From positions 310,001 through 374,000 of the forward strand of contig NC_008378.1 of NCBI RefSeq assembly GCF_000009265.1: DNA of 64,000 bases. Direction: 5' to 3'. The stretch comes from Rhizobium johnstonii 3841 (lineage in GTDB: Bacteria; Pseudomonadota; Alphaproteobacteria; Rhizobiales; Rhizobiaceae). Under the pieces are notes generated by a model, which made no database searches, was not told where the DNA came from, and saw only the letters and a program-made list of their open reading frames with translations. Numbering within the stretch: the first letter of the stretch is position 1; each line of letters begins with the position of its first letter. Shown in pieces: positions 7,349 to 24,153 of the stretch. Made by a program: the position numbers and the translations under genes.

Positions 7349-9547
7349 TCAGGCCACATCCGGCAAGCCACCGATGAGCTTGTCAAGTGTCAGCGGATAG
7401 TGCCGGACCCTGACGCCGGTCGCGTTATAGACGGCGTTGGCGATTGCTGCCGCGACGCCGCAAAGGCCAAGCTCGCCGACGCCCTTTGCCTTCATCGGCG
7501 AGGACATCGGATCGGTCTCGTCCATGAAGATCACCTCCTGGTGCGGAATGTCGGCATGCACCGCCACTTCATAGCTGGCGAGATCGTGGTTGACGAAGAA
7601 GCCGCGACGGGTGTCGACCGCCAATTCCTCGGACAGCGCGCCGCCCGCCCCCATCGTCATCGCGCCGATGACCTGGCTTCGGGCGGTGATCGGATTAAGG
7701 ATTCTTCCCGCCGCACAGACTGCGAGCATCCTGCGGATCCGGCTTTCCCCAGTGGCAATGTCGACGCCAACCTCGACGAAGTGCGCGCCGAATGTCGATT
7801 GCTGATGCGTTTCGGTGAGCTCGCCCCACTTGATGGTGTCTTCGCCGACAAGGCCATCCGGACCGGCGGCTTCGGCAAGAGGCACCGAACGATTGCCCGA
7901 GCGGACCTCGCCATTCTCGAAGACGATGTCTTCGGAGTTGAAGCCGAGCTTCTTGGCGATGGCCTCACGCAGCTTGACACAGGCTGCGTAGACGCCAGAC
8001 GTGGAAGAGTTCGCACCGAACTGTCCGCCGGAACCCGCAGAAACCGGAAAACGCGAGTCGCCGAGTTGGACGGCGACCTTGTCGATCGTGACCCCCATCA
8101 TCTCGGCCGCCGTCTGGGCGATGATCGTGTAGCTGCCGGTTCCGATGTCGGTCATGTCGGTTTCCACAGTCACGACGCCTTCCCGGTCGAGCTTTACCCG
8201 GGCTCCGGAGGGAAGGACGAGGTTGTTGCGGAAGGCAACGGCGACGCCCATGCCGACCAGCCAGCTGCCATCCCGTCTGGAACCCGGCTTTCCTCTTTCA
8301 CGCCAGCCAAACCGCTCCGCACCTAGTGTGAGGCAGCCGACGAGATTGCGCTGGGAAAAAGGCCGCTGCGGCTTTTCCGGATCGACCTGCGTGTCGTTGA
8401 CGATCCGAAATTGTACAGGATCGATCCCAACTTTTTCGGCAATCTCGTCGATGGCGATTTCGAGCGCCATCAGTCCGGGGGCTTCGCCCGGAGCGCGCAT
8501 GGCATTGCCCTCCGGGAGATGAAGCGTCGCAAGACGCATTGCGGTCATCCGGTTTGCACCCGCATAGAGGAGCCGCGTCTGGTTGACGGCGGTCTCCAGT
8601 CCGCCGCCCGGAAGGTCGCCGGACCAGCTTTCGTGCGCAATGGCAGTGATCTTGCCGTCACGCTCGGTTCCAATGCGGATCCGCTGGATCGTCGCCGGCC
8701 GATGGGTGGTGTTGTTTATCAGGAGGGGGCGAGGCAAGGCGACCTTGACGGGCCGCTTGACCGCACGCGCACCGACAACGGCCAGCACGGCATCCGCCCG
8801 CAGGAACAGCTTGCCGCCGAAGCCGCCGCCGATGAACGGCGACATGAGGTGGATATTCTCCTTGTCGATGTCGAGCGTCGTTGCAAGGTCGGAGCGCCAC
8901 CAGTCGATCATCTGGCTGGAGGTCCAGACGGTCACCTCGTCGCCGTTCCAGGCTGCGATCGATGCGTGCGGCTCCATCATCGCATGCGACTGGTCGGGCG
9001 TCGTGTAAGACGCGTCGACAGTGACGGGAGCTGACCTGAAGGCAGCCTCGAAGTCGCCGACCGCTGTATCGGGCTGCTGAGATTCATCCGGCTTGACGGC
9101 TGAATCCTTTGCCTGACCGAGATCGAACACACCCTTTTCTTCGGCATAGTCGACCTTGACCAGGGAGGCTGCGGCGCGTGCCTGCTCGAAGGTCTCGGCG
9201 ACGACGACCGCGATTGCCTGGTGATAGTGCTGAACCTCGTCGCCACCGAAAAGCTTGGCGGTGTTGAACCTGCCCTTCTTCCGCTCGCCGATATCGAGCG
9301 TCGTCACGACGGCAAGCACGCCCGGAGCCTTTTTGGCGGCGGAAACGTCCATGGACGTGATGCGGCCCTTGGCGATGGCCGCGCCAACGGGATAACCGTA
9401 GGCGTAGGACATATTCGGATCGTGCCACTCATAGGCGTACATCGCGCGGCCGGTCGTCTTGAGCTGACCATCGATGCGGTGGATCGGCTGGCCGACGACC
9501 TTCAGATTGTCGATCGGGTTGGTTGTCGCTGGCGTATCGAACTGCAT
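7349..9547 (-). CDS. paoC: Molybdopterin-binding subunit of periplasmic aldehyde oxidoreductase (PaoC-like)
   Basis: The 732-residue large subunit of a xanthine-oxidase-family enzyme. It has the aldehyde oxidase a/b hammerhead domain (residues about 20-130) followed by the molybdopterin-binding domains, with GGGFGGK near residue 240, EAPG near residue 355 and the GVGELGLCGVA motif near the C-terminus that supplies the catalytic Glu. It oxidises an aldehyde or N-heterocycle by hydroxylation. It has no signal peptide of its own; in this family the complex is carried across the membrane by the Tat signal on the Fe-S subunit. It starts 3 nt after paoB stops. Confidence 0.9.
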   Translation of the reverse strand: MQFDTPATTNPIDNLKVVGQPIHRIDGQLKTTGRAMYAYEWHDPNMSYAYGYPVGAAIAKGRITSMDVSAAKKAPGVLAVVTTLDIGERKKGRFNTAKLFGGDEVQHYHQAIAVVVAETFEQARAAASLVKVDYAEEKGVFDLGQAKDSAVKPDESQQPDTAVGDFEAAFRSAPVTVDASYTTPDQSHAMMEPHASIAAWNGDEVTVWTSSQMIDWWRSDLATTLDIDKENIHLMSPFIGGGFGGKLFLRADAVLAVVGARAVKRPVKVALPRPLLINNTTHRPATIQRIRIGTERDGKITAIAHESWSGDLPGGGLETAVNQTRLLYAGANRMTAMRLATLHLPEGNAMRAPGEAPGLMALEIAIDEIAEKVGIDPVQFRIVNDTQVDPEKPQRPFSQRNLVGCLTLGAERFGWRERGKPGSRRDGSWLVGMGVAVAFRNNLVLPSGARVKLDREGVVTVETDMTDIGTGSYTIIAQTAAEMMGVTIDKVAVQLGDSRFPVSAGSGGQFGANSSTSGVYAACVKLREAIAKKLGFNSEDIVFENGEVRSGNRSVPLAEAAGPDGLVGEDTIKWGELTETHQQSTFGAHFVEVGVDIATGESRIRRMLAVCAAGRILNPITARSQVIGAMTMGAGGALSEELAVDTRRGFFVNHDLASYEVAVHADIPHQEVIFMDETDPMSSPMKAKGVGELGLCGVAAAIANAVYNATGVRVRHYPLTLDKLIGGLPDVA

Positions 9548-9550
9548 GGC

Positions 9551-10501
9551 TCAACCCCTTGCTTCGGCAATGACCGCGCCGAGCGTGCGCTCGACCAGGT
9601 CGACCTTGAAACGGTTCTGTTCGGTCGGGTGCGCGCCGGCAAGAAGCACGCCTGCCACCGCCCGCGCGCCTTTCGGCAGCTCGGCTTCGGCGGCCTCGAT
9701 GCGCCACGGTTTGTGGGCGACGCCGCCGACGGCGAGACGTCCTGTCCCATCCGGCTGGATCACGGCTCCGACCGAGACCAGCGCAAAGGCATAGGAGGCG
9801 CGGTCTCGCACCTTGCGATAGATGTGCTTGCCGCCGATCGGGGGTGGCAGCAGGACCGCCGTGATCAACTCGCCGCGCTCAAGAACGGTTTCGATATCAG
9901 GCGTGTCGCCGGGCAACCGATGAAAGTCGGCGATCGCAATCGCGCGGCGACTTCCGTCGGCCTTGACCGTTTCCACAACAGCATCGAGCGCCCGCATGGC
10001 GATGGCCATGTCACTCGGGTGAGTGGCGATGCAAGCTTCGCTGGTGCCGACGACGGCATGCTGGCGGCTGAAGCCGCCGATGGCGGAACAGCCGCTGCCC
10101 GGCTGCCGCTTGTTGCACGGCTGGTTCGGGTCATAGAAATAAGGACAGCGCGTGCGCTGCAGGAGGTTGCCGGCCGTCGTCGCCTTGTTGCGCAGTTGCC
10201 CGGAGGCGCCCGCGACAAGCGCCCTGGAGATCAGGCTGTAGTCGCGGCGAACGGTCTCATGAGCTGCAAGATCGGTGTTGCGGACCAAGGCGCCGATGCG
10301 CAGCCCGCCCTGCGGCGTGGGTTCGATCTTGTCGAGGCCGACACCGTTGACATCGATCAGATGCGTTGGCGTTTCGATCTCGAGCTTCATCAGGTCGAGG
10401 AGGTTGGTGCCGCCGGCGATGAACTTGGTTTCAGGATTGGAGGCTGCCGCCTTGGCCGCGGCCTCGACGGACGAGGCACGTTCATAAGTGAAGGCTCTCA
10501 T
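9551..10501 (-). CDS. paoB: FAD-binding subunit of aldehyde oxidoreductase (PaoB-like)
   Basis: The 316-residue FAD subunit (CO-dehydrogenase flavoprotein/PCMH fold). FAD contacts appear as [13 protein letters not shown] at about residues 28-40 and [11 protein letters not shown] near 115. The cysteine set RTRC, CNKR and GSGC at about 115-140 is the insertion that holds an extra [4Fe-4S] cluster in PaoB, which separates this subunit from ordinary xanthine dehydrogenase FAD subunits. Its ATG overlaps the paoA stop by 4 nt (ATGA). Together with PaoA and PaoC it forms the heterotrimer that passes electrons from Mo through Fe-S to FAD. Confidence 0.9.
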
Positions 10502-11133
10502 GCTTTAATCCCCGCGACTTCCGAAATGGCATCGATAATGTTGGAATAGGCGCCGCATCGACAGATATTGCCGCTCATGCGTTCGCGGATCTCGGCCGCA
10601 GTGACGGCCGCCTGAGCCGTAAGATCGCCGGTGACGTGGCTCGGTATATTCGCCTTGATCTCCTCGAGCACCGCCACGGAGGAACAGATCTGTCCCGGCG
10701 TGCAGTAGCCGCACTGGAAGCCGTCATGCTTGACGAAGGCCGCCTGCATCGGATGAAGGTTTTCAGGCTGGCCGAGGCCCTCGATCGTGGTGATTTGATC
10801 GCCTTCGTGCATGACCGCCAGCGTCAGGCAGGAATTGATGCGGTGGCCGTCGACCATGACGGTGCATGCACCGCATTGGCCGTGGTCGCATCCCTTTTTC
10901 GTGCCTGTGAGATGTAGGTGCTCGCGCAACGCGTCGAGCAGCGACGTTCTGTTGTCGACCTCGAGATCGCGCTTCTCACCGTTAACCGCGAAGGAAACCT
11001 TGGATGTATAGGCCATGTCATTTCCTGGGGACTGTGCCGCCGCGGGCGCGACGGCTGCGGTGACCGCAATCGTTGCGGCCGACGAGATAAGTAGATCTCG
11101 ACGGGAAAGTTCCAGTTGTGTCTGGCTTGGCAT
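10498..11133 (-). CDS. paoA: 2Fe-2S subunit of aldehyde oxidoreductase with Tat signal (PaoA-like)
   Basis: The 211-residue small Fe-S subunit and first gene of the operon. The N-terminus carries a twin-arginine motif (SRRDLLISS) followed by a hydrophobic, alanine-rich stretch ending AAAQS, so the folded complex should be exported by Tat. Two [2Fe-2S] sites are visible: plant-ferredoxin type ([11 protein letters not shown] with a later Cys) at about 95-120 and the helical-domain type (CGYCTPGQ and CRCGAY) near 145 and 195. The ATG at 11133 has AGGTGGA at good spacing; a GTG 12 nt earlier overlaps that ribosome site. The 315-bp gap upstream is shared with the creatininase-family gene. Confidence 0.9.
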
Positions 11134-11448
11134 GAACTGTTCCACCTTGCTCGTTGGACATAGGCGCGCGTCAACGCCGTCTGCTGAGGTAGTGCAACTC
11201 CGCCTCCTGATTAGACCCCTTCCGTTGCATACGGTTATCGATCTGGCTCATGAATTCCCCGAGCCGCGGTCATAAGATGCCGCGAGCCACAACATCAATG
11301 AAGTTGGCTTGGACGCGGAAGCGCCAGCGGAGCAACGCCCGCCGATGCGCGCGAAAAAAAGCAGCGCCATGCGCAAAAAATGATGCTTTTCGGGCTCATC
11401 ATTATTCCCTACTCCCTATCGAAGCAGGTGACGAAAGGGGAAGACCGC
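11134..11448. promoter_or_regulatory. Divergent intergenic region of paoA and the creatininase-family gene
   Basis: 315 bp without a gene. It must hold the paoA promoter (minus strand) and the promoter of the creatininase-family gene (plus strand). Just upstream of the latter lies ATGCGCA at 11369-11375 followed by TGATGCTTTTC at 11381-11391. The same two words occur upstream of the ABC-transporter operon at 13276-13282 and 13290-13300, suggesting a shared operator. An AAAGGGG ribosome site precedes the 11449 start. No small coding gene is convincing. Confidence 0.55.
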
Positions 11449-12246
11449 ATGCCCACGCCGTTTTACTGGAACGAGCTCAATACATATGATTTTGCCGGCC
11501 TCTCCCCCGAGACCACGATTGCTATTCTGCCCATCGCCTCGACGGAACAGCACGGCCCGCATCTGCCGATTGCAACGGATGTCGCCATCGCGACCGGCAT
11601 GCTGGCGGAGCTGAAGAGGCAGCGGCCGGAGGATCTGGACATGCTGGTCCTTCCGACACAGGAGATCGGCAAGGCCAACGAACACATCTACGGCCCCGGC
11701 ACGCTGTCGCTCGGTGCCGAGCTGCTCATCCCCGTCTGGACGGCGATCGGCGCAAAGGTTGCCGAAGCCGGGCTGCGGAAGATGGTGATCGTCAATTCCC
11801 ACGGCGGCAATGTCGACATCATGAGCATCGTCGCGCGCGAACTGCGCGTGCACTATCAAATGGCGGTGGTCTCCACGCAATGGGGCCGTTTCGGCCACCC
11901 GGAAGGCATGGTCAGCGATCACGAGAGCAAATACGGCATCCACGGCGGCGATGTCGAGACGTCGTTGATGCTGCATTTCCGCCCCGAACTGGTGCGGATG
12001 GACAAGGCCCAGAACTTTGCCTCGAAGGCCGAAAGGATGCGGGAGCAATCCAGATTTCTTCAGCCTCTGCCGCCGCATTCGCTCGCCTGGATTGCGCATG
12101 ACCTCAATCCCTTCGGCGTGGTCGGCGATGCCTCGATTGCCACTGCCGAAAAGGGCGAGGCGATCTGCCGCCATCAAGTCAAGGGGTTCGTCGAGCTGCT
12201 CCGGGACCTCAAGGCCTATCCGCTTTCGAATCTCTATGTGAAATAG
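11449..12246 (+). CDS. Creatininase-family amidohydrolase
   Basis: A 265-residue member of the creatininase family, metal-dependent hydrolases that open cyclic amides or act on formamides. The metal-site motifs are present: STEQHGPHLPIATD at about residues 30-45 (Glu, His and Asp ligands) and VNSHGGN near 115, with a GDVETSLML segment carrying a further Glu near 170. The start at 11449 (MPTPFYWNEL) follows AAGGGG. The gene is next to a LysR regulator and an ABC/amidohydrolase operon, and shares an upstream motif with that operon, so ring opening of an imported heterocycle is the most likely role. The family does not reveal the exact substrate. It overlaps the convergent LysR gene by 38 bp. 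Confidence 0.85.
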   Translation: MPTPFYWNELNTYDFAGLSPETTIAILPIASTEQHGPHLPIATDVAIATGMLAELKRQRPEDLDMLVLPTQEIGKANEHIYGPGTLSLGAELLIPVWTAIGAKVAEAGLRKMVIVNSHGGNVDIMSIVARELRVHYQMAVVSTQWGRFGHPEGMVSDHESKYGIHGGDVETSLMLHFRPELVRMDKAQNFASKAERMREQSRFLQPLPPHSLAWIAHDLNPFGVVGDASIATAEKGEAICRHQVKGFVELLRDLKAYPLSNLYVK

Positions 12247-13198
12247 GTTCAGCCGCCGGTTTCACATCCGGTGGGATATGACCCTTGGCCTGCAATTCCT
12301 GCACCAGGCCGAGCAGTTCAGCGAGCAGATATTCGACGAAAAGGCTGGTGGCCGCGTCGAGCGGCGCACGGGCGCGGGCAAACAGTTTCATCTGCTGGTA
12401 ACGCGCATGCGGCTCGGCGATCGGCCGGAAGACGAGTTCACCGCGCCGGCATTCGGTGATGACGTCAAGCGGATTGAGCAGCGTCAGCCCCGTGCCGCAT
12501 TTGACGAGCTGTTTCAGCATCTCCGATGCATTGGTTTCCAGCACCGGCTCGACCGAGATGGGCAGGCGCGCAAAAGCAAGGTTGATCACCTCGCGCAGGC
12601 TGGTGCCCGGCTGCGCCAGAACCAGTTTTTCCTGGGTGACATCGGCGAGGTTGATCGGCCCGGGACCGATCAGGTGATGCCCCGGCGGCAGCACGACACC
12701 GATCGGGATATCGAAATTTCCGAGCGTGCGGATGCCGGGCATGGCGGGGATGTTGAAGCCAAGACCGATATCCACCTCGCCTGATACAACGGGGCTGGCC
12801 GTCGTGCCGCCGGTGTCGTTGCGCAGCTGGACGAAAACGCGCGGATGTTCTGAAAGAAAGCGCGCGATGATTTCGGGCAGCGGTCCGGCGGCAAGCCCAA
12901 CGGTGGTCACCATGCGCACCTTGCCTGCCTGCTGCATCTTGAGGCTGCGGATGCGCCCTTCCAGACGCTCGTAATTCTTCAGCACGTCCCGGATATGCTC
13001 GATGCAGAGTTCGCCGGCAGCCGTCAGCCGCAAGCCACGCGGCAGCCGCTCGAAAAGCGGCGCCCCGATCTCCTCCTCCAGCGCCAAAATCTGCCTGTTG
13101 ACCGCCGATGACGCAACATTGAGGCGCGCGGCCGCCTTGCGGATCGAACCACAACGGGCAATCTCGTTGATGTAGAGAAGGCGTCTGGAGTGCAGCAT
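12209..13198 (-). CDS. LysR-family transcriptional regulator of the heterocycle locus
   Basis: A 329-residue LysR-type regulator. The helix-turn-helix is at about residues 5-62 (YINEIARCGSIRKAAARLN, then ALEEEIGAPLFERLPRGLRL); the ligand domain begins with VRMVTTVGLAAGPLPEIIARFL near residue 92. It lies between the creatininase-family gene (convergent, 38-bp overlap) and the ABC operon (divergent). The 183-bp divergent gap holds two large dyads, one 16-42 bp upstream of its own ATG. It is therefore the probable regulator of both flanking transcription units and of itself. The start at 13198 (MLHSRRLLY) matches the family N-terminus; a longer frame to 13234 would overlap the dyad. Confidence 0.88.
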   Translation of the reverse strand: MLHSRRLLYINEIARCGSIRKAAARLNVASSAVNRQILALEEEIGAPLFERLPRGLRLTAAGELCIEHIRDVLKNYERLEGRIRSLKMQQAGKVRMVTTVGLAAGPLPEIIARFLSEHPRVFVQLRNDTGGTTASPVVSGEVDIGLGFNIPAMPGIRTLGNFDIPIGVVLPPGHHLIGPGPINLADVTQEKLVLAQPGTSLREVINLAFARLPISVEPVLETNASEMLKQLVKCGTGLTLLNPLDVITECRRGELVFRPIAEPHARYQQMKLFARARAPLDAATSLFVEYLLAELLGLVQELQAKGHIPPDVKPAAEPISHRDSKADRP

Positions 13199-13381
13199 GG
13201 TCTCTCCGATGCATAAATTTTGCGCAGAGCGCACAAATTATTTTCAGCTTTCCGACAGATGCCGAAAAGGCATCAATGCGCACGAATTTTGATGCTTTTC
13301 AAAGCGCATGGCAATGGCTCAAATTCCCTCAAAAGGAGGCCGAGCAAGGCCTCCCTCGGTCAAAAAGGGGAACTGCCGACC
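13199..13381. promoter_or_regulatory. Divergent lysR/ABC-operon promoter region with two dyads
   Basis: First dyad: an imperfect 27-bp palindrome at 13214-13240 with core TGCGC-AGA-GCGCA and matching A/T flanks (TAA and TTA). Second dyad: GAAAAGGCATCA at 13264-13275 mirrored by TGATGCTTTTC at 13290-13300, with ATGCGCA at 13276-13282 between them. The right arm plus ATGCGCA also occur upstream of the creatininase-family gene (11369-11391). LysR regulators typically bind such paired sites, one high-affinity site near their own start and one activation site near the target promoter, so these are its likely binding sites. Confidence 0.65.
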
Positions 13382-14398
13382 ATGTTGAAAGCACAGACGA
13401 AGACGCAATTCCTGAGCTGCCTCGGCCTCGCTTCGATGCTTGCCGCCGCCTCGCCGGCGCTTGCCCTCGACAAGGTGAGCTATGGGACGAACTGGCTTGC
13501 CCAAGCGGAACATGGCGGCTTCTACCAAGCCGTCGCCGACGGTACCTATGCAAAATACGGCCTCGACGTCACCATCGTCCAGGGCGGCCCGAATGCTGCA
13601 AACAGCGCGCTCTTGATCTCCGGCAAGCTCGATTTCTACATGGGCGGCCCGCAGGGCGAAATATCCGCCGTCGAGCAGGGCATTCCGCTGGTCGATGTCG
13701 CCGCGATCTTCCAAAAGGATCCGCAGGTGCTGATCGCCCATCCGGACAACGGCGTCGACAAGTTCGAGGATCTCGCCAAGCTGAAAACGCTGTTCCTCAG
13801 CAAGGACGGCTACCTCACCTATTTCGAATGGATGAAGGCCAACTTCAAAGGCTTCAAGGACGAACAGTACAAGCCCTATAACTTCAGTCCCGCGCCCTTC
13901 CTCGCAGACAAGGACTCTGCCCAGCAGGGGTACCTGACCTCCGAACCTTACGAGATCCAGAAGCAGGCAGGCTTTGAGCCGAAGGTCTTCCTGCTCGCCG
14001 ACAACGGCTACTCGCCCTATTCGACGATGATCACGACAACACAGGCGATGATCGACAGCAAGTCCGATGTCGTGCAGCGCTTCGTCGATGCCTCGATCGA
14101 GGGCTGGTACAACTACCTCCATGGCGACAACACCAAGGCGAACGAGCTGATCAAGAAGGATAATCCTGAAATGACGGATGGCCAGCTCGCCTATTCGATC
14201 GCCAAGATGAAGGAATACGGCATCATCGAATCCGGCGACAGCCTCGACAAGGGCATCGGCTGCATCACCGATGCGCACTACAAGACGTTCTTCAACGAGA
14301 TGGTGGCGATCAAGGTCTTCAAGCCGGAGACGGATTACACCAAAGCGTTTACGACGAAGTTCGTCTGCAAGAGCACCGGCGTGGCACTGAAGAAATAG
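13382..14398 (+). CDS. ABC transporter substrate-binding protein, THI5/NMT1-like
   Basis: A 338-residue periplasmic binding protein with a Sec signal peptide (residues 1-31, SMLAAASPALALD). The mature N-terminus, with NWLAQAEHGGFYQAVADG, is typical of the NMT1/THI5-like and SsuA/ThiY group, whose members bind pyrimidines, riboflavin-like compounds, sulfonates and other small anionic or heteroaromatic ligands. It heads an operon with a matching ATPase and permease and three catabolic enzymes. The pyrimidine-like assignment of the ligand is inferred from the downstream cytosine-deaminase-like enzyme. Confidence 0.85.
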   Translation: MLKAQTKTQFLSCLGLASMLAAASPALALDKVSYGTNWLAQAEHGGFYQAVADGTYAKYGLDVTIVQGGPNAANSALLISGKLDFYMGGPQGEISAVEQGIPLVDVAAIFQKDPQVLIAHPDNGVDKFEDLAKLKTLFLSKDGYLTYFEWMKANFKGFKDEQYKPYNFSPAPFLADKDSAQQGYLTSEPYEIQKQAGFEPKVFLLADNGYSPYSTMITTTQAMIDSKSDVVQRFVDASIEGWYNYLHGDNTKANELIKKDNPEMTDGQLAYSIAKMKEYGIIESGDSLDKGIGCITDAHYKTFFNEMVAIKVFKPETDYTKAFTTKFVCKSTGVALKK

Positions 14399-14457
14399 GC
14401 TTACCGCCGGCTCTCCTGGTCCGCCAATGAGGACGTGGCGGGCCGTATCCTCCCCGC

Positions 14458-15297
14458 ATGAACGAGACAGCAATGCTCCCAGCAGACGCCCAGGCGGTAT
14501 CCCCGAAAGAGACGCGCAAGCGGCCGCTTGTTATCATGCAATCGGTGTCGAAGATCTTCTCCAGCGGCACTGTCGCCCTTTCGCACATGTCGCTCACGGT
14601 CGAAAGCGGCGAGTTCGTCAGCCTGCTCGGCCCTTCCGGCTGCGGCAAGTCGACGGCGCTGCGCATCATCGCCGGTCTCGGCGATGTCACCTCGGGAACG
14701 ATCGATTGGCCGAGTTCGCGCATCAATTCCAGAGGTCTGCCGGAGGGCGATATCGGCTTTGTCTTCCAGGAGCCGACGTTGATGCCCTGGAAGAACGTGT
14801 TCGACAATGTCCATCTGCCGCTGTGGTTGAGGCGCGTTTCGAAGGCAGCCGCGCATGATCAGATCATGGAAGTGCTAGCAACCGTCGGCCTTCAGGATTT
14901 TGCCAAGGCCTATCCGCGCGAACTTTCCGGCGGCATGAAGATGCGCGTCTCGATCGCCCGTGCGCTGGTGACGAAGCCGAAGCTGCTGCTGATGGACGAG
15001 CCTTTCGCCGCGCTCGATGAGATCACCCGTCAGAAGCTCAACGACGATGTGCTGCGGCTGTGGAAGGCGACCGGCATTACGGTGATTTTCGTGACGCATT
15101 CGGTCTTCGAGTCCGCCTATCTCTCGAACCGCATCGTCGTGATGAAGGCAAGGCCCGGGCGCGTGCATGCCGACGTCCCGCTGATCACCAGCCTCGAACG
15201 CGACGCGCACTACCGCACCTCGGAAGAATACCGCAAGGCCTGCGAAACGGTATCGCATTCGCTGATCGGGGCGATCAATTCGGCAGGGGATCATTGA
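14458..15297 (+). CDS. ABC transporter ATP-binding protein (SsuB/TauB/ThiZ type)
   Basis: A 279-residue ATPase. Walker A GPSGCGKST is at about residues 58-66, the Q-loop in VFQEPTLMPW near 100, signature LSGGMKMR near 155, and Walker B LLLMDEPF near 178, followed by the H-loop VTHSVFE. The LSGGM signature and TLMPW Q-loop are characteristic of the nitrate/sulfonate/taurine/pyrimidine importer family, matching the binding protein upstream. There is no clear Shine-Dalgarno site at 14458; the 59-bp gap from the binding-protein gene holds nothing else. Its TGA overlaps the start of the permease gene. Confidence 0.9.
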   Translation: MNETAMLPADAQAVSPKETRKRPLVIMQSVSKIFSSGTVALSHMSLTVESGEFVSLLGPSGCGKSTALRIIAGLGDVTSGTIDWPSSRINSRGLPEGDIGFVFQEPTLMPWKNVFDNVHLPLWLRRVSKAAAHDQIMEVLATVGLQDFAKAYPRELSGGMKMRVSIARALVTKPKLLLMDEPFAALDEITRQKLNDDVLRLWKATGITVIFVTHSVFESAYLSNRIVVMKARPGRVHADVPLITSLERDAHYRTSEEYRKACETVSHSLIGAINSAGDH

Positions 15298-16139
15298 TGA
15301 GTGACGAAACAGACACATCGCCGCTGCTCGTTAAGGGTACCGCAAGCGCAACGCGCCGCGATCTTGCGCTGCGCATCGCCATCCCCTTCCTCGTCATCGC
15401 CCTGTTGATCCTTGTCTGGTACGCCTATGTGAAACTGTCCGGCGTGCCACCCTATATCCTGCCAGGACCGGCCGCTGTGGCAAACGCCTTCGTGACGGAT
15501 TGGGGTACGCTGGCCCCTGCCCTCTGGGTCACCACCAAGATCACCTTCATGTCGCTGATGCTGGCGCTTGTCGGCGGCGTCGGCTTTGCGATCTTTCTCG
15601 TGCAGTCGCGCTGGGTCGAGCTTGCCTTCTATCCGCTTGCCGTCATCCTGCAGGTAACGCCGATCGTCGCCATCTCGCCGCTGATCCTGATCTATGCGCC
15701 GTCGACACAGGTCGCGCTGCTGATCTGCGCCTTCCTCGTCGCCTTTTTCCCGATCCTTTCGAACATGGTGCAGGGACTGAAGAGCGTCGACCACAATCTG
15801 ATCAACCTCTTTGAACTCTACGGCGCCTCGCGATGGCAGACGTTGATCCATCTGAAGATCCCGGCCGCCCAGCCCTATTTCATGACCGGCCTTCGCATCG
15901 GCGGCGGGCTCGCACTGATCGCCGCTGTCGTCGCCGAATTTGCCGCGGGCTCGGCCGGTGCCGGATCCGGTCTCGCCTTCCGCCTGCTCGAAGCGCAGTA
16001 CCGGATGAACATCCCGCGGCTCTTCGCAGCCCTCTTGATGCTCTCCATGCTTGGCGTAGCGATCTTCGGCCTCACCACACTCATCGCCTGGCTGAGCCTC
16101 CACCGCTGGCATGAGAGCAGCATCAAACGGGAAAACTGA
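15297..16139 (+). CDS. ABC transporter permease (SsuC/ThiX type)
   Basis: A 280-residue integral membrane permease with about six transmembrane segments and the BPD_transp_1 coupling helix (ELYGASRWQTLIHLKIPAA) at about residues 175-195. The N-terminal 25 residues are cytoplasmic. Its ATG overlaps the ATPase stop (TGATG), and its own TGA overlaps the start of the amidohydrolase gene, so transporter and enzymes are made as one coupled unit. It completes a one-permease, one-ATPase, one-binding-protein importer. Confidence 0.9.
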   Translation: MSDETDTSPLLVKGTASATRRDLALRIAIPFLVIALLILVWYAYVKLSGVPPYILPGPAAVANAFVTDWGTLAPALWVTTKITFMSLMLALVGGVGFAIFLVQSRWVELAFYPLAVILQVTPIVAISPLILIYAPSTQVALLICAFLVAFFPILSNMVQGLKSVDHNLINLFELYGASRWQTLIHLKIPAAQPYFMTGLRIGGGLALIAAVVAEFAAGSAGAGSGLAFRLLEAQYRMNIPRLFAALLMLSMLGVAIFGLTTLIAWLSLHRWHESSIKREN

Positions 16140-17452
16140 TGACCTATTCCTTCATATCCCCGCCGAATGCTGCCCGGTTCGTGCTGAGCAATGCGACAGT
16201 GCCCGCCGTCACCGTCGAGCATATCGACGTGCCGGTCACAGAAGGGCTGGCCACAGTCGATATCGTCATCAGCGACGGCATGATTGCCGCCATCCGGCCG
16301 GCCGGCGCCGCACCCGCCGATTATGCCAGGACCGATCTCAGGGACGGAATGGTCTGGCCGTGCTTTGCCGATATCCATACCCATCTCGACAAGGGCCATA
16401 TCTGGCCGCGCCAGGCCAATCCCGACGGTAGCTTCATGGGTGCGCTCGATGCCGTCAGGGCCGACCGTGAAGCCAACTGGTCGGCGGCAGACGTCAAACG
16501 GCGCATGGAATTCTCGCTCCGCTCCGCCCATGCCCATGGCACCAGCCTGATCCGCACGCACCTCGATTCGCTTGCGCCCCAGCATCGCATCTCCTTCGAG
16601 GTCTTTGCCGAAATCCGGGATGCCTGGAAAGACAGGATCGCACTGCAAGCGGTCGCCCTCTTCCCGCTGGATGCCATGGCAGACAGCGCCTTCTTTGCCG
16701 ATCTCGTCACAACAATCCGACAGACCGGCGGCCTGCTTGGCGGCGTCACCCGGATGGGGCCGGAGCTTGTCTGGCAGCTCGACATGCTCTTCAGGACTGC
16801 CGCAGAGCATGGCCTGGATATCGATCTGCATGTCGACGAGACGGATGATCGCGGTGCGGAAACACTGAAGGCAATTGCCGAGGCCGTGCTGCGCAACGGG
16901 TTCGAGGGCAAGGTGACCGCCGGCCATTGCTGCTCGCTCGCCCGCCAGGACGAAGACACCGCCGCGCGCACCGTCGAGTTGGTCGCCAAGGCAGGTATCG
17001 CGGTCATCGCGCTGCCGATGTGCAACATGTATCTGCAGGACCGCTATCCCGGCCGCACCCCGCGCTGGCGCGGTGTCACCCTGTTCAAGGAGCTGGTCGC
17101 CGCCGGTGTCGCGACCGCGGTCGCATCCGACAATACCCGTGATCCCTTCTATGCCTATGGCGATCTCGATCCGGTGGAGGTCTTCCGCGAGGCCGTGCGG
17201 ATTCTGCATCTCGATCACCCGCTCGATACCGCCGCCCGTGTCGTCACCACCTCGCCCGCCGCCATCGTCGGGCGACCGGACAAGGGCCGTATCGCCGCCG
17301 GCGATCCCGCCGATCTCGTGCTCTTCAGCGCACGGCGCTGGAGTGAATTCCTGTCCCGTCCGCAGTCTGACCGCGTCGTGCTTCGCCGCGGCAAGGTGAT
17401 CGACCGCAGTCTGCCGGATTACCGTGAACTCGATAGTGTCGTTGGAGCCTGA
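16139..17452 (+). CDS. Cytosine-deaminase-like amidohydrolase
   Basis: A 437-residue metal-dependent amidohydrolase (TIM-barrel superfamily) related to cytosine deaminase and N-isopropylammelide-type enzymes. The metal-site motif HTHLDKGH lies near residues 78-85; later ligands and catalytic residues appear in DLHVDETDD (about 230), TAGHCCS (about 260) and ASDNTRDPF (about 330). In this group they deaminate or hydrolyse amino-substituted N-heterocycles such as cytosine, creatinine or triazines. It overlaps the permease gene by one base and is followed after 1 bp by an FAD oxidase. This supports a pathway that imports and then deaminates a heterocycle. Confidence 0.85.
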   Translation: MTYSFISPPNAARFVLSNATVPAVTVEHIDVPVTEGLATVDIVISDGMIAAIRPAGAAPADYARTDLRDGMVWPCFADIHTHLDKGHIWPRQANPDGSFMGALDAVRADREANWSAADVKRRMEFSLRSAHAHGTSLIRTHLDSLAPQHRISFEVFAEIRDAWKDRIALQAVALFPLDAMADSAFFADLVTTIRQTGGLLGGVTRMGPELVWQLDMLFRTAAEHGLDIDLHVDETDDRGAETLKAIAEAVLRNGFEGKVTAGHCCSLARQDEDTAARTVELVAKAGIAVIALPMCNMYLQDRYPGRTPRWRGVTLFKELVAAGVATAVASDNTRDPFYAYGDLDPVEVFREAVRILHLDHPLDTAARVVTTSPAAIVGRPDKGRIAAGDPADLVLFSARRWSEFLSRPQSDRVVLRRGKVIDRSLPDYRELDSVVGA

Positions 17453-17453
17453 C

Positions 17454-18863
17454 ATGGCCGATTATCAGAAGATCAAAAAGGACCTCGAAGGCATCGCTGT
17501 CGAGGACAATCCGGCGCTGGTTCGCCAGAAGAGCCGGGATTTCTATTGGTACTCGCCGATCCTGAAGGCGCAGCTCGACAATGTTTCCGCCGATCTCGTC
17601 GTCACGCCGAAGACCGAGGAAGAGGTCATCCGGACGCTGAAGGTCGCCTATGCCCATGGCGTGCCGGTCACGCCGCGCGGCGCCGGCACCGGCAATTACG
17701 GCCAGGCCATGCCGCTTTCCGGCGGCATCGTGCTGAACCTTGCAGCTATGGACAAGATCAAAGAGATCCATCCCGGCCGCGTCGTCTGCGAACCGGGCAT
17801 CGTACTTGCCCAACTCGACAAGCAGACCAAGGCCCATTCCGGCCAGGAGCTGCGCTTCCACCCCTCCACCGCCCAAACGGCGACGGTCGGCGGCTTCATT
17901 GCCGGCGGCTCGGGCGGCGTCGGCTCGATCACCTGGGGCGGCTTGCGCGACCTCGGCAATATCCTGCGCCTGCGCGTCGTCACGATGGAGGCCGAACCGC
18001 GCGTGCTCGACCTCACCGGCTGGGATCTCCAGAAGGTGAGCCACGCCTACGGCACCAACGGTATCATCACCGAGATCGAGATGCCGCTTGCGCCTGCCTA
18101 TGACTGGGTCGATGTGCTCGTCGGCTATGACGACTTCATGGAAGCGGTGCGCTTTTCCGACGCGCTGGCGAAATGCAACGGCATCCTCGTCAAGGAGATC
18201 GCGCCGATCGCCGCTCCCATCCCTTACGACTATTTCACCCGCCACAAGCCCTACATCCGTCAGGGCCAGTCGATTGTCGTGCTGATGATCGCGCCGCACT
18301 CCATGGATGCCTTTCTTGCCTTCACGGCGGCGCAGAAGGGCGAGATCATGTTCCGCTCCGACAAGGTGGAAAGCATGCGCGGCATCCCGCACGCCTATGA
18401 GCTTGCCTGGAACCACACGACACTGCGTGCGCTGAAGGTCGACCCGAGCTTCACCTATCTGCAGGTGCAATATCCTGGACCCGATCATGTCGCCAAGGTC
18501 CGCAAGATGGTGGAGATCTTCGGTGACGAAGTGCCGGGTCATCTCGAATTCATCAAATTCGACGGCCAGATCCAGTGCTCGGGCCTGCCGCTGGTGCGCT
18601 ATACCACCGAGGAGCGGCTGGAGGAGATCATCAAGATCCACCAGGATAATGGATGCCCGATCTTCAACCCGCACCGCTATACGCTCGAAGAAGGCGGCAT
18701 GAAGCGGACCGATGCGGTGCAACTCGCCTTCAAGCAGGAAACCGATCCGAAGGGCCTGCTCAATCCCGGCAAGATGATCGCCTGGGAAAATCCCGATTTC
18801 GATTTCAACGCCGGCAAGAACTATCTCTTCCCCGGCCTGGCGGCCCTGATGGAGGCCTCATGA
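17454..18863 (+). CDS. FAD-binding oxidoreductase (PCMH/FAD_binding_4 type)
   Basis: A 469-residue flavoenzyme of the lactate-dehydrogenase/glycolate-oxidase-D type. The PCMH FAD domain runs from about residue 40 to 220, with TPRGAGTGNYGQAMPLSGG near 76-94 and AGGSGGVGSITWG near 147; a C-terminal substrate domain ends with FNPHRYTLEEGGM and DPKGLLNPGKM, the usual family ending. It probably oxidises a hydroxyl- or amine-bearing pathway intermediate. Its ATG lies 1 bp after the amidohydrolase stop, and its TGA overlaps the next start (ATGA). The substrate is unknown; coupling to a RidA gene hints at an imine product. Confidence 0.82.
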   Translation: MADYQKIKKDLEGIAVEDNPALVRQKSRDFYWYSPILKAQLDNVSADLVVTPKTEEEVIRTLKVAYAHGVPVTPRGAGTGNYGQAMPLSGGIVLNLAAMDKIKEIHPGRVVCEPGIVLAQLDKQTKAHSGQELRFHPSTAQTATVGGFIAGGSGGVGSITWGGLRDLGNILRLRVVTMEAEPRVLDLTGWDLQKVSHAYGTNGIITEIEMPLAPAYDWVDVLVGYDDFMEAVRFSDALAKCNGILVKEIAPIAAPIPYDYFTRHKPYIRQGQSIVVLMIAPHSMDAFLAFTAAQKGEIMFRSDKVESMRGIPHAYELAWNHTTLRALKVDPSFTYLQVQYPGPDHVAKVRKMVEIFGDEVPGHLEFIKFDGQIQCSGLPLVRYTTEERLEEIIKIHQDNGCPIFNPHRYTLEEGGMKRTDAVQLAFKQETDPKGLLNPGKMIAWENPDFDFNAGKNYLFPGLAALMEAS

Positions 18864-19441
18864 GGGTTCTCGTCCTCCACTCTCACCCGGTCGAGGAAAG
18901 TTATGGCAAGGCGCTTTACCGGCAAACCGTCGAGAGCCTGCAGAAGGCCGGGCATATGGTGGATGGCTGCGACCTCTATGAAGAGCGGTTCGATCCGGTG
19001 CTCTCGCGCCACGACCGGCTCGCCTATCACGACTATCCGGAAAATCTGAAGCTGGTGGAATCGCATGTCGAAAGGTTGAAGGCGGCCGAGGGGCTGGTGA
19101 TCTGCACCCCGATCTGGAACTTCGGCTTTCCGGCGATCCTCAAGGGATATTTCGACCGAGTCTGGCTGCCGGGCGTTTCCTTCGAGCTGGTCAACGGCAA
19201 GGTGGAATCGCGGCTGCGCCACATCCGCAAGCTCGCAGCCGTCCTGACCTACGGCGCAACGCCCTTCCGGGCCTTCGCTGCCGGCAACCCTCCAAAGAAA
19301 ATCGTCAAGCGCGTGCTGAGGGCGCAGATCAATCCAGTGAGGCCGGTGACGTTCCTGGCCCATTACGACATGAACAATTGCACGCCGGAAACGCGGGCAA
19401 AATTCCTCGCCCGCGTCGGAGGGGCGATGGAGCGCTTTTAG
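18860..19441 (+). CDS. Flavodoxin-fold NAD(P)H dehydrogenase (quinone reductase family)
   Basis: A 193-residue flavodoxin-fold protein of the NAD(P)H:quinone oxidoreductase/KefF/MdaB group. It begins with the FMN/FAD-contacting strand RVLVLHSHPVEESYGKAL and carries TPIWNFGFPAILKGYFDRV near residues 80-98, the family's flavin-binding loop. It is translationally coupled to the FAD oxidase gene (ATGA overlap) and is the last gene of the operon. It could supply reduced flavin or reduce a quinoid or heteroaromatic intermediate. It ends against the convergent ridA gene with a 4-bp overlap of stops. Confidence 0.82.
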   Translation: MRVLVLHSHPVEESYGKALYRQTVESLQKAGHMVDGCDLYEERFDPVLSRHDRLAYHDYPENLKLVESHVERLKAAEGLVICTPIWNFGFPAILKGYFDRVWLPGVSFELVNGKVESRLRHIRKLAAVLTYGATPFRAFAAGNPPKKIVKRVLRAQINPVRPVTFLAHYDMNNCTPETRAKFLARVGGAMERF

Positions 19442-19827
19442 AAGATTTTCGCGGCCGTCACCTCGACTTCGACGAGGAACTCAGGGCGGGTAAAGCCGCC
19501 GATGACGAGCAAGGTGGAAACCGGCTTTGGATCGAGCGTATAGCGATCCCGCACGGCCATATAGGCCGGGAAATCCTCGCGGCGGGTGACGAAGCCCGAA
19601 ATGCGGATGACATCGGCAAAACTCATCTCCGCCTCTTCGAGGATCGCCTTGATCGCCTCGAAGCAGAGCTCTGCCTGCGCGGTGATGTCGCTCGGAACAA
19701 CATCGTCGAGACCGATACCAAGCTGGCCCGACGTGACCAGGAGCGATGCGCCGGGCGGCACGAGCAGGCCGTGATTGTAATTTCCAAAAGGCCGGCGCAC
19801 CGAGGCCGGATTGAAGGTCTTCTTCAT
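19438..19827 (-). CDS. RidA/YjgF-family imine deaminase
   Basis: A 129-residue RidA-family protein. Family marks include the N-terminal FGNYNHGLLVPPG, a TSGQLGIG strand, and SFADVIRISGFVT followed by PVSTLLVIGGFTRPEFLVEVEVTA. RidA proteins hydrolyse reactive enamine/imine intermediates to ketones and ammonia. The Arg normally present in the catalytic strand is not conserved in the usual RPEFLVEVE context but an RPEFLVE version is. It is convergent to the catabolic operon, overlapping by 4 bp. ATG at 19827 is chosen; a GTG at 19836 with GGGAA 5 nt upstream is an alternative start adding three residues. Confidence 0.85.
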   Translation of the reverse strand: MKKTFNPASVRRPFGNYNHGLLVPPGASLLVTSGQLGIGLDDVVPSDITAQAELCFEAIKAILEEAEMSFADVIRISGFVTRREDFPAYMAVRDRYTLDPKPVSTLLVIGGFTRPEFLVEVEVTAAKIF

Positions 19828-20021
19828 CGATCGCACTTAGTTTCCCATAGGTCCGCAGATCCCGCGACCGTACACGATGCGGCAGGATATGAGAATATCG
19901 CTGCCGCTCATGATGCCTTGCGACGAGTGATGCGGGACAACTGCTTTGGAGGGATCGAGCCGATGATCGCCCAGGCGCCAGGTCAATGTCTTTCGGTATC
20001 TTACCTGACGTCAGCCGCGCG

Positions 20022-22108: not shown

Positions 22109-22828
22109 ATGCACCAACCTGAAGATCATCCTGCCGGCATTGAAATCGCGCTTTGGCCGTATTCCAAGATCGAAGGAGACTGGAACCGCTGGATGCAGTC
22201 GCTTTCACCGGATGAACGGGAGCGCGGTGCGACGTACCGTTTTGACCGGGATCGGGCCTCGTTCGTTGCCGGCCGGTATCTCCTGCGGCGGCTATTGAGC
22301 GTGCATACCGGGATATCGCCGAGCAAGCTCCTGTTGTCCCCGGACAACCGTGGCAAGCTGAGGCTTGAGGGGCGTGAGAGGCCGCATTTCAGCCTCGCAA
22401 ATACCGACGGGCTTGTGGCGGTCGCTGTCGCTTCAGGATGTGACCACCTGGGAATAGACTGCGAACGCGCCGATACCGAGATCGAAGCGGCGGCAGTGGA
22501 TAGCTATTGCAGTGCAGACGAACGGCGCTGCCTTGCGGAATTGCCTGCGCGCGAACGCACGCGCGCGGCCATTGCACTCTGGACGCTCAAGGAGAGCCAT
22601 CTGAAGGCACTCGGCGTCGGGCTGCGCGAGAATCCCCGCAACGTCGCCTTTTCCTGGAAGGATGGTATCCCAGTCATGGTCGATGGTGGCGATCGCGATC
22701 GGCGATGGCATCATCGTCTGGTCGAAAGCGGCAGCCAGCACGTCGTCGCGCTGGCTGCTTGCTCGCAATCCGGGTTCCCCGGCATTTCGACACGCCTATT
22801 TCAGGACGATAGCATGCCGTCCGAATAG
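22109..22828 (+). CDS. vbsP: 4'-phosphopantetheinyl transferase for siderophore synthesis
   Basis: A 239-residue Sfp-type phosphopantetheinyl transferase. It shows the three family motifs: FVAGRYLLRRLL near residue 52, the Mg-binding LGIDCE near 113, and WTLKESHLKALG near 157. It transfers phosphopantetheine from CoA to the carrier-domain Ser of the NRPS encoded by vbsS, without which no siderophore is made. It is convergent to vbsO and overlaps its 3' end by 28 bp. In R. leguminosarum vbsP is a separate unit of the vicibactin locus, which agrees with this position. The start at 22109 has only a modest ribosome site (GCGAG). Confidence 0.88.
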   Translation: MHQPEDHPAGIEIALWPYSKIEGDWNRWMQSLSPDERERGATYRFDRDRASFVAGRYLLRRLLSVHTGISPSKLLLSPDNRGKLRLEGRERPHFSLANTDGLVAVAVASGCDHLGIDCERADTEIEAAAVDSYCSADERRCLAELPARERTRAAIALWTLKESHLKALGVGLRENPRNVAFSWKDGIPVMVDGGDRDRRWHHRLVESGSQHVVALAACSQSGFPGISTRLFQDDSMPSE

Positions 22829-24153
22829 CCGGCGCGGAGCTGATGAGGCATTGCGGACGCGGTCTCCGTCGCCCAGGCGAGTTGCCCATTGTCGGGTTCT
22901 GCATTGAAATGCTGCCGGCCGAGAAGCGTATTGACGATGGTTGCGCTGCGCCAGGCCATGAGGCTGAGCTGAGAATCGGCGATACCATGCGAGTATCGCC
23001 CCGCATTCTGCGCAAACAGCCGGTTGGCCCTCGGACCCGTCCACTGCATCGTGTAGTCGTCATTGAGAAGCGGATAGCCGTTTCTGTCGAGCGTTATCCT
23101 GTCGCCCAGTGAGCCGAGAGCATCCGGTAACCGGAACCGGTAGCCGGTTGCCAGAACCACCGCATCCGCATGAAGCACCTCGATCCCACCGTCGAATTGG
23201 TTCCTGACGATGAGCCGGTAGGCATTGCCGTTCCGCTCCATCTGAATCACATCGCGATTTGGCGCCAGAGATGCGTTGAGTGTGCTCGGTTCGAGATAGC
23301 GCAATGCATAGAGGCGGCGATAGATCGCGTGTATCGTCGAAATCGACAAGCCGTCGCTGGTCAGGATCGAGTTCTTCAAAGCGGCTTGCTTCTGCTCGCT
23401 GCCGAGCTTCAGATAGGCCTGCACGTATTCTGGTGAGAAGACTTGGTTCGAAAACGGCGTGTCGTTGATCGGCTCGAAATTGTGACGCCGGCTAATCCAT
23501 GTCAGCTCCTTCATGGAACCGGGATCGGCAAGCAGGGCTTCGACAACCTCACCGCCGCTTTGACCGCCGCCGACCACGACGATGCGGGCAACGCCGAGAT
23601 CGCTGAGACGCGATTTGGCCTCGCTGTTGTGAAAGCAATCAGCACCCAGAAACGGTTTTGCCCAGTCGGGCACGAAGGGTGGAGATCCCGTGCCGATCAC
23701 CAGGTTTCGCGCCTCCTCCTGCCCGCTGTCGAACCGCAGGAAGAAGCGGTCGTCGCGATGCTCGACGTCACGGATCTCCGTGCCAAAGCGCAGGCCGTCC
23801 AACCCGTTGGCCACCCAGGCGAGATAACGTGCAAACTCCTGCCGGGGAACGGCCTCATAATTGGCGTTCAGGAAGGCGTAGAGCCTCTTATGGGCAACCA
23901 GATAGGAGACGAATGACCAGCGGCTGGTCGGCAGGACCGGGGTGACGAGGTCTTTCAGAAAGGACGATTGCAACTCGACGCCGGGCATCATCATGCCGGG
24001 ATGCCAGTCGAACGAGTCTCGTCGCTCGAAGAAACGGCTTCTGATCTCGGGCACCGACTCGAACAGGCAGGCGAGGCTCAGATTGGAGGGGCCGATGCCG
24101 ATGCCGGCAATATCCAGCGGCTCGGCATCCCTGCGGGCAAAAGCGACGGTCAT
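22801..24153 (-). CDS. vbsO: L-ornithine N5-monooxygenase (vicibactin hydroxylase)
   Basis: A 450-residue flavin-dependent N-hydroxylating monooxygenase (SidA/PvdA/IucD family). FAD motif GIGIGPSNLSLA is at about residues 17-28, the NADPH motif VVVGGGQSGGE near 190-200, and the C-terminal ATGYRF near 318. It uses NADPH and O2 to hydroxylate the side-chain amine of L-ornithine, the first step toward the hydroxamate groups. It is the last gene of the vbsGSO unit: its ATG overlaps the vbsS stop by 4 bp (ATGA). Family length and motifs are complete. Confidence 0.92.
   Translation of the reverse strand: MTVAFARRDAEPLDIAGIGIGPSNLSLACLFESVPEIRSRFFERRDSFDWHPGMMMPGVELQSSFLKDLVTPVLPTSRWSFVSYLVAHKRLYAFLNANYEAVPRQEFARYLAWVANGLDGLRFGTEIRDVEHRDDRFFLRFDSGQEEARNLVIGTGSPPFVPDWAKPFLGADCFHNSEAKSRLSDLGVARIVVVGGGQSGGEVVEALLADPGSMKELTWISRRHNFEPINDTPFSNQVFSPEYVQAYLKLGSEQKQAALKNSILTSDGLSISTIHAIYRRLYALRYLEPSTLNASLAPNRDVIQMERNGNAYRLIVRNQFDGGIEVLHADAVVLATGYRFRLPDALGSLGDRITLDRNGYPLLNDDYTMQWTGPRANRLFAQNAGRYSHGIADSQLSLMAWRSATIVNTLLGRQHFNAEPDNGQLAWATETASAMPHQLRAGYSDGMLSS

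Follow-up and report, generated by a model that had tools for sequence, protein, structure and literature searches.

The biosynthesis of folate is established. The degradation of folic acid in the environment 'has not been fully elucidated' (PMC9513972); the excerpted text of that study stops at deaminated folate and pteroate and asks if and how other bacteria degrade them. It does cover pterin deaminases of the amidohydrolase type, among them the enzyme of Variovorax sp. F1, a protein of 399 residues with 37% identity to the A. radiobacter K84 enzyme Arad3529 (PMC9513972). The F1 gene was cloned with the help of a primer placed in conserved endoribonuclease genes that lie 3' of predicted V. 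paradoxus deaminase genes (PMC9513972, as excerpted). A further enzyme is represented by structure entry 6v42, released 2020-12-02 under the title 'Crystal structure of the flavin oxygenase with cofactor bound involved in folate catabolism'; no mention of the code 6v42 was found in the open-licence literature. Here we describe nine genes at positions 11449-19836 of a 64,000-nucleotide stretch of Rhizobium johnstonii 3841 (contig NC_008378.1, positions 310,001 to 374,000), which is called the window below and belongs to a genome of 7.75 Mb on seven contigs. We propose that this locus probably imports and catabolises folate or pterins. The confidence was set at this level because the direct evidence on the substrate consists of the title of 6v42 and of the likeness to the published deaminases. 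The first-pass annotation of the window had left the substrate open and had named neither folate nor pterins.

The flavin enzyme, the deaminase and a candidate pathway

The nine genes of the locus are listed below with the family match on which each name is based (aa, amino acids; ABC, ATP-binding cassette; FAD, flavin adenine dinucleotide; ORF, open reading frame; SBP, substrate-binding protein).

11449..12246, plus strand: Crn, creatininase-family metal hydrolase, 265 aa (PF02633, 240 bits)
12209..13198, minus strand: LysR regulator, 329 aa (PF00126 and PF03466; the ORF reaches a GTG at 13234)
13382..14398, plus strand: SBP, ABC substrate-binding protein of the NMT1/THI5 type, 338 aa (PF09084, 92.5 bits)
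14458..15297, plus strand: ABC transporter ATPase, 279 aa (PF00005)
15297..16139, plus strand: ABC transporter permease, 280 aa (PF00528)
16139..17452, plus strand: Cda, amidohydrolase of the NF005759/PRK07583 family, 437 aa, proposed pterin/folate deaminase (NF005759)
17454..18863, plus strand: FadOx, FAD protein, 469 aa (PF01565)
18860..19441, plus strand: NQO, flavodoxin-fold NAD(P)H reductase, 193 aa (PF02525)
19438..19836, minus strand: Rid-family protein, 132 aa (PF01042)

The closest solved chain to FadOx was 6v42, with an E-value of 1.7e-215 over 458 residues, the next chain following at 2e-18; in the genome search the two proteins were 66% identical. A structure model of FadOx, built from 31 sequences with a mean pLDDT of 75.3 (31.6 when computed without an alignment), was superimposed on 6v42 with a Z-score of 43.9 and 2.5 Å over 449 aligned residues at 60% identity, and the next among the matches listed had a Z-score of 28.1. 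In a tree of 95 sequences (FastTree, midpoint-rooted) the window FadOx and 6v42 were found in one clade of 39 tips with a support of 0.97. Outside that clade stood paralogues of 39-51% identity and also many remoter FadOx proteins of the cluster type (56-70%). In the genomes nearest to 6v42 (90% and 88% identical; L195 and L196 in our numbering of loci) all eight genes were present around FadOx. Because of the 66% identity, the shared clade and the full cluster in the nearest relatives, the 6v42 enzyme and the window FadOx most probably represent one enzyme in one gene context.

Cda scored 699.5 bits against the model NF005759 (PRK07583, named 'cytosine deaminase'), well over its cut-off of 403. 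Residues H80, H82, H231, E234, H263 and D331 were kept in at least 97% of 140 rows (row counts include the window and omit rows with internal stops), and by analogy with CodA we take these six to be the positions of metal binding and catalysis. Compared with Cda homologues from clusters beyond the near relatives, the identity was 32-39%. A single near relative of the window Cda was found in a R. rhizogenes genome, namely the Cda of the cluster (77%; next 30%), and this was also the best match of the Cda homologues of L209 (39%; next 27%) and of Pantoea (33%; next 26%), both of which come from outside the class. The simplest reading of these comparisons would make Arad3529 the copy of Cda in K84. 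In 22 of the 142 unique loci, some of them without a detected creatininase-family gene, a further deaminase was found that belongs to the PRK08203 family, and the one in L049 (15682-17025) scored above the cut-off for 8-oxoguanine deaminase. The solved relatives of one PRK08203 deaminase include 3hpa, 7ww2 (8-oxoguanine deaminase) and 2paj; the latter, which we take to be an isoxanthopterin deaminase, points to pterins again.

Relatives of Cda were also observed apart from the cluster. On contig C6 of the same genome a second PRK07583-family protein is encoded (L224:9424-10776), 50% identical to Cda and over the cut-off; an IS110-type transposase gene lies nearby, and no importer domain was found among ten ORFs scanned. 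The atrazine plasmid pADP-1 encodes an amidohydrolase of the same broad family (L237:7938-9269; 293.5 bits, under the cut-off of 403), the gene of which adjoins an ABC transporter beside the cyanuric acid gene atzD.

Crn missed the cut-offs of all four NCBIfam equivalog models that it matched, including those for creatininase (TIGR04448, 98.5 of 235 bits) and MftE (120.7 of 172 bits). The metal ligands of creatininase are presumably Glu34, His36, Asp45, His120 and Glu122. The conserved residues E33, H35, D44 and H118 of Crn are aligned with the first four, and Gly120 occupies the position of Glu122, so that four of the five ligands are kept and the set is incomplete. Crn is predicted to be a metal amidohydrolase without a matching specificity model. 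Of the ring opening by a creatininase-family enzyme that had been proposed earlier, the family assignment was upheld, but the step itself is weakened by a score far from the creatininase cut-off. The variable surroundings of this gene were recorded as well. In R. etli CIAT 652 (L232:1-3832) urea amidolyase and amidase genes lie next to the creatininase-family gene, which could fit the release of a urea-type fragment. On two Rhodobacterales plasmids (L177:16009-17550 and L178:15928-17447) a second reductase and a 2OG-Fe(II) oxygenase are encoded between the reductase and creatininase genes, and relatives of this oxygenase were found in 3 of 142 loci.

The catalytic arginine of RidA is, we assume, Arg105. 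The Rid protein has Ser107 at this position, and serine was found in all 130 rows (loci with FadOx of at least 55% identity). The imine hydrolysis that the first-pass annotation had assigned to a RidA protein is therefore without sequence support. The nearest solved relatives of NQO were oxidoreductases and quinone reductases. For SBP the matches found, 4nmy and the formylaminopyrimidine-binding protein 3ix1 (E 4e-6), were weak.

From these assignments we propose the following order of steps. SBP, ATPase and permease would import folate, pteroate or free pterin, and Cda would strip the 2-amino group from the pterin ring to give a lumazine-type product. The deaminated pterin would then be oxidised by FadOx, to which NQO may give reducing power, unless it reduces a quinonoid product. 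Crn would open a cyclic amide of the oxidised ring. Rid may have an accessory role and is probably not an imine deaminase, and LysR would govern the importer operon and the Crn gene via a common operator.

The first-pass annotation had called the pathway undescribed. This was too strong, as an orthologue of FadOx was deposited in 2020 under folate catabolism and pterin deaminases have been published (PMC9513972, excerpted text). The pterin deaminase and the flavin oxygenase are already known as such, and the chance is considerable that the full pathway has so far gone undescribed. An account of the whole locus, with importer, creatininase-like step, Rid protein without the arginine and shared operator, was not found in the open-licence literature. 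It is a tentative but tenable proposal that the locus represents a complete, unpublished pathway of import and pterin-ring opening in Alpha-, Beta- and Gammaproteobacteria, in which the flavin oxygenase and a creatininase-like amidohydrolase act consecutively and the Rid protein without the arginine serves in a role other than that of an imine deaminase. The locus offers a candidate answer to the question of folate breakdown, with a candidate importer, that can be tested gene by gene in a manipulable symbiont. If it is true, many proteins annotated as 'cytosine deaminase', 'creatininase' or 'RidA' would receive names, and a Rid protein lacking the arginine would be placed in a defined pathway.

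Organisation and conservation of the gene set

All nine genes were present with the families named by the first-pass annotation, as judged by Pfam and NCBIfam matches. The operon runs from SBP to NQO and has six genes (13382-19441); LysR is divergent from it, and Crn and Rid lie outside, because Crn is a separate unit, extending 38 bp into the LysR gene of opposite orientation, and Rid lies on the strand opposite to the operon. The earlier statement that overlaps of 1-4 bp join the genes into one unit thus applies within the operon, where ATPase and permease as well as permease and Cda overlap by 1 bp and FadOx and NQO by 4 bp, but not to SBP and ATPase, which are separated by a 59-bp gap, nor to Crn and Rid. 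FadOx most likely starts at the ATG at 17454, 1 bp past the stop of Cda, as in the annotation of strain WSM1325, in which the homologous stretch carries the same genes and a LysR homologue of 990 bp. The Crn start at 11449 matches the 798-bp annotation in R. etli CIAT 652; in WSM1325 the gene is annotated with 867 bp.

To compare neighbourhoods, 152 loci were entered (L036-L176 without L096, and L195-L206), all of them picked through FadOx. Three were dropped because FadOx identity was below 55%, leaving 149, seven of which were duplicates (142 unique loci), and 12 further loci were dropped for flanks shorter than 8 kb on a side, leaving 137; the counts on 137 loci were taken before removal of duplicates. 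Fifty-eight loci were taken from 100 genomes of the order with near-full-length FadOx of at least 52% identity, plus two paralogue places and then 20 more stretches; the named loci, mostly from Rhizobium, make up the best 80 of the 579 that were confirmed. Presence of a gene required a match that reached 35% identity (for ATPase, LysR and the chemotaxis receptor, 40%) and covered at least 55% of the query at no more than 11 kb from FadOx, and a gene not found under this rule can be one that has diverged.

All eight non-regulator genes were found together in 109 of the 137 loci, and the six-gene operon was complete in 129. Taken singly, Cda was present in 135, ATPase and NQO in 133 each, SBP and permease in 132 each, Rid in 127 and Crn in 116. 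By the same rule, window genes outside the cluster were seldom near FadOx: XdhA, XdhB and XdhC in 5/137 each, a chemotaxis receptor in 6/137 and two genes beyond this receptor in 3/137 and 3/137. The co-conservation of the gene set is far above chance. Earlier counts on parts of the same loci had given all eight genes in 37/53 and 63/73. The claim of a dedicated importer with catabolic enzymes for an N-heterocycle, encoded as one unit, is supported, as the genes travel together and a shared motif, described below, links Crn to the operon. Neighbourhoods without the creatininase-family gene or Rid, which the first-pass annotation had named as grounds for giving up its reading, did occur as a minority (Crn was not found in 21/137 and Rid in 10/137). 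LysR was present in 59/137 loci, in none of the 67 loci with FadOx identity of 55-70%, and was confined to loci close to that of the window; a MarR-type gene was found in 28/142 unique loci.

FadOx homologues of at least 52% identity and near full length were detected in 100 of 297 genomes of the order, besides broken matches in two others (G172 and G246). Among 398 genomes of the phylum FadOx was found in 32 (query 6v42, E at most 1e-80), Cda in 28 (query the window protein, E at most 1e-60) and both in 27, with about 2 expected on the assumption of independence, which related genomes do not satisfy. Four of the five phylum genomes with FadOx only (G354, G476, G598 and G634) had a remoter Cda (32-39%) beside FadOx. 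Outside the class, a Comamonadaceae plasmid and L212 carried the same families on one strand, Crn and Rid among them. Pantoea shows the same order, running from a 399-aa Cda homologue through Rid, Crn, SBP, ATPase and permease to FadOx, and a PDR/VanB-type oxidoreductase gene stands in place of NQO.

Operator-like sites before the importer operon and Crn

The following elements were identified in the regions before the two units.

11371..11391, plus strand: operator-like site before Crn (GCGCA..TGATGCTTTTC; composite pattern, one of two genome matches)
13258..13274, no strand assigned: dyad GATGCC-N5-GGCATC with a LysR-type T-N11-A box at 13260-13272 (from aligned intergenic regions)
13278..13300, plus strand: operator-like site before the importer operon (GCGCA..TGATGCTTTTC; the other genome match of the composite pattern)

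In the intergenic region between the divergent LysR gene and SBP a T-N11-A box with the sequence TGCC-GAAAA-GGCA was found at 13260-13272. In an alignment of 60 such LysR-SBP regions most columns of the dyad were conserved at 75-90% or more, and the dyad is followed there by a conserved TGATGCTTTT element (motif counts cover 58-60 loci with LysR; for the upstream counts LysR, SBP and Crn were present at 60% or more). The copy of the dyad at 13258 was the sole exact match in the window, and with up to three mismatches the number of matches in the window was at chance level (64 against 61.6 expected).

Exact TGATGCTTTT sites occurred twice in the window, at 13290-13299 before SBP and at 11381-11390 before Crn; with up to one mismatch seven sites were found against 3.25 expected. 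The pattern GCGCANNAAN{0,3}TGATGCTTTTC had just two matches in the 7.75-Mb genome and none in a reversed control, and since it was drawn from the two sites themselves this shows its specificity and is not a discovery. With up to one mismatch TGATGCTTTT was present upstream of SBP in 54/58 loci and of Crn in 54/58, compared to 0/54 for Rid, 0/58 for NQO and 2/58 for Cda, and mononucleotide shuffles averaged 0.1-0.3, with 0.2 for Crn. Exact copies stood upstream of SBP in 51/59 and of Crn in 38/58 loci. By its presence upstream of both SBP and Crn and its absence before Rid, the motif ties Crn, but not Rid, to the operon. An in-frame ATG lies within the site before Crn (ORF 11380-12246), and WSM1325 is annotated from a start giving that length, which calls for caution. 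In the alignment of Crn upstream regions the motif was conserved and its surroundings hardly at all, so that the site fits regulatory sequence better than coding sequence. LysR may bind a shared operator before the importer operon and the Crn gene.

Alternative readings, neighbouring genes and known systems

Several observations weigh against the folate/pterin reading and have to be set beside the evidence above. The folate assignment of 6v42 comes from the entry title, and the comparison was made by sequence, by model structure and by title. Paralogues of FadOx (44-51%; L060, L086, L093 and L094) are accompanied by importer and/or creatininase-family genes and have no Cda of their own. These loci may be sister modules for other substrates, and the module may for this reason serve more than one substrate. 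The orthologous loci L073, L080, L082 and L083 have Cda, FadOx and NQO but, apart from ATPase matches, neither importer nor Crn nor Rid; in L090 almost nothing of the gene set accompanies FadOx; and there are the 21 loci in which Crn was not found at the thresholds used. A DAO-GcvT fusion in 17/142 loci and a GntC-like aminotransferase in 14/142 have no evident tie to folate. The likeness of SBP to pyrimidine-binding proteins is weak, the PRK08203 family is a possible alternative home for Arad3529, and the 11-mer core TGATGCTTTTC taken alone occurs ten times in the genome, eight of these elsewhere.

Some of these points bear on a reading in which the substrate is another N-heterocycle, such as a pyrimidine, a thiamine fragment, a creatinine analogue or a product of purine oxidation, and in which the label 'folate' on 6v42 describes a different substrate of that orthologue. 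The NMT1/THI5 type of SBP with its weak match to the formylaminopyrimidine-binding protein would agree with it, as would the paralogous modules without Cda and the urea amidolyase and amidase genes of R. etli CIAT 652. We consider it improbable, however, as the window FadOx and 6v42 are orthologous and the nearest relatives of 6v42 share the context, and as the cut-offs for CodA (133.9 of 483 bits), creatininase and RutC (29.6 of 169.1 bits) were far from reached. The creatinine, cytosine and Rut routes were rejected on these model scores.

The next alternative accepts folate as substrate and places the attack at the side chain. FadOx would act like a cytokinin dehydrogenase and oxidise folate at its secondary amine, C9-N10; the resulting imine would break down into pterin aldehyde and p-aminobenzoyl-glutamate, and Cda and Crn would act on the freed pterin. 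Cytokinin dehydrogenases oxidise an N-CH2 bond to an imine and share the fold of FadOx (Z 23-24), but this fold is general to the VAO/PCMH family, and D-lactate and D-2-hydroxyglutarate dehydrogenases scored higher (Z about 28). Moreover, the title of 6v42 reads oxygenase, neighbours of the aldehyde-oxidoreductase type that could handle a pterin aldehyde were found in just 5/137 loci, and Rid lacks the arginine of imine deaminases. An attack on the side chain therefore appears unlikely to us. Catabolism of a plant or algal betaine of the homarine or trigonelline type, an N-methylpyridine that would be imported and opened oxidatively, was considered since the cluster is seen in many alphaproteobacteria, its sole hint being the combination of an importer with ring-attacking enzymes. 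The open-licence literature on homarine gave citations and mentions of the metabolite and nothing more. We set this reading aside as very improbable, since a deaminase would have no obvious part in homarine breakdown and the FadOx orthologue, by the title of 6v42, indicates folate.

Folate or pterin catabolism thus stays our preferred reading. At 7349-11145, divergent from Crn, lies a molybdenum aldehyde oxidoreductase trio of the PaoABC type (so annotated in WSM1325). This xanthine-dehydrogenase-type trio was ruled out as part of the pathway, being near FadOx in just 5/137 loci and therefore unrelated to the cluster. Judged by eye, genes at 22109-24153 resemble those of siderophore synthesis, namely a phosphopantetheinyl transferase gene and one for a lysine/ornithine N-monooxygenase; with 3/137 loci each, they are not conserved near FadOx. 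The DAO-GcvT fusion was observed in L048 (5277-7724) and in 16 other loci, and neither it nor the GntC-like aminotransferase was retained as core in view of the low counts. At least 45 other recurrent gene groups accompany the loci. Ten representatives scanned with Pfam comprised no evident pterin enzyme; two were EamA transporters, one each was an aldehyde dehydrogenase, an adenylosuccinate synthetase and an aminotransferase, and the other five had no Pfam match. The genes SMc02344-SMc02346, presumed at one point to be a possible Sinorhizobium counterpart, were not confirmed as such and were not used as evidence. In excerpted text they are described as a putative transporter of glycine betaine or choline with a response under nitrogen stress or in GlnBK/GlnD mutants (PMC8829014, PMC3596328), and SMc02344 as under positive Hfq control (PMC3484140).

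Among known systems, the Rut pathway resembles the locus by a Rid-family protein near flavin enzymes (RutC), and no other Rut model was among the matches listed for the nine proteins. Creatininase, MftE and the 3-dehydro-scyllo-inosose hydrolase IolN share the PF02633 family with Crn, which differs by the glycine at the position of E122 and by its scores under the equivalog cut-offs. CodA belongs to the same protein family as Cda (solved CodA, E 1.3e-32), but Cda stays far below the CodA-type cytosine deaminase model (PRK09230), and the annotation 'cytosine deaminase' names no more than the family. Closer is the flavin oxygenase of 6v42/6v43, of which FadOx is an orthologue and whose nearest relatives lie in the same cluster. 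The PF01042 (Rid) family is described as Endoribonuclease L-PSP. With the pterin deaminase of Variovorax, compared by description, the locus shares an amidohydrolase deaminase and an adjoining Rid-type endoribonuclease gene, and length and gene order match the Pantoea cluster; the excerpted account covers deamination and glutamate release (PMC9513972), to which the present locus would add import and the opening of the ring.

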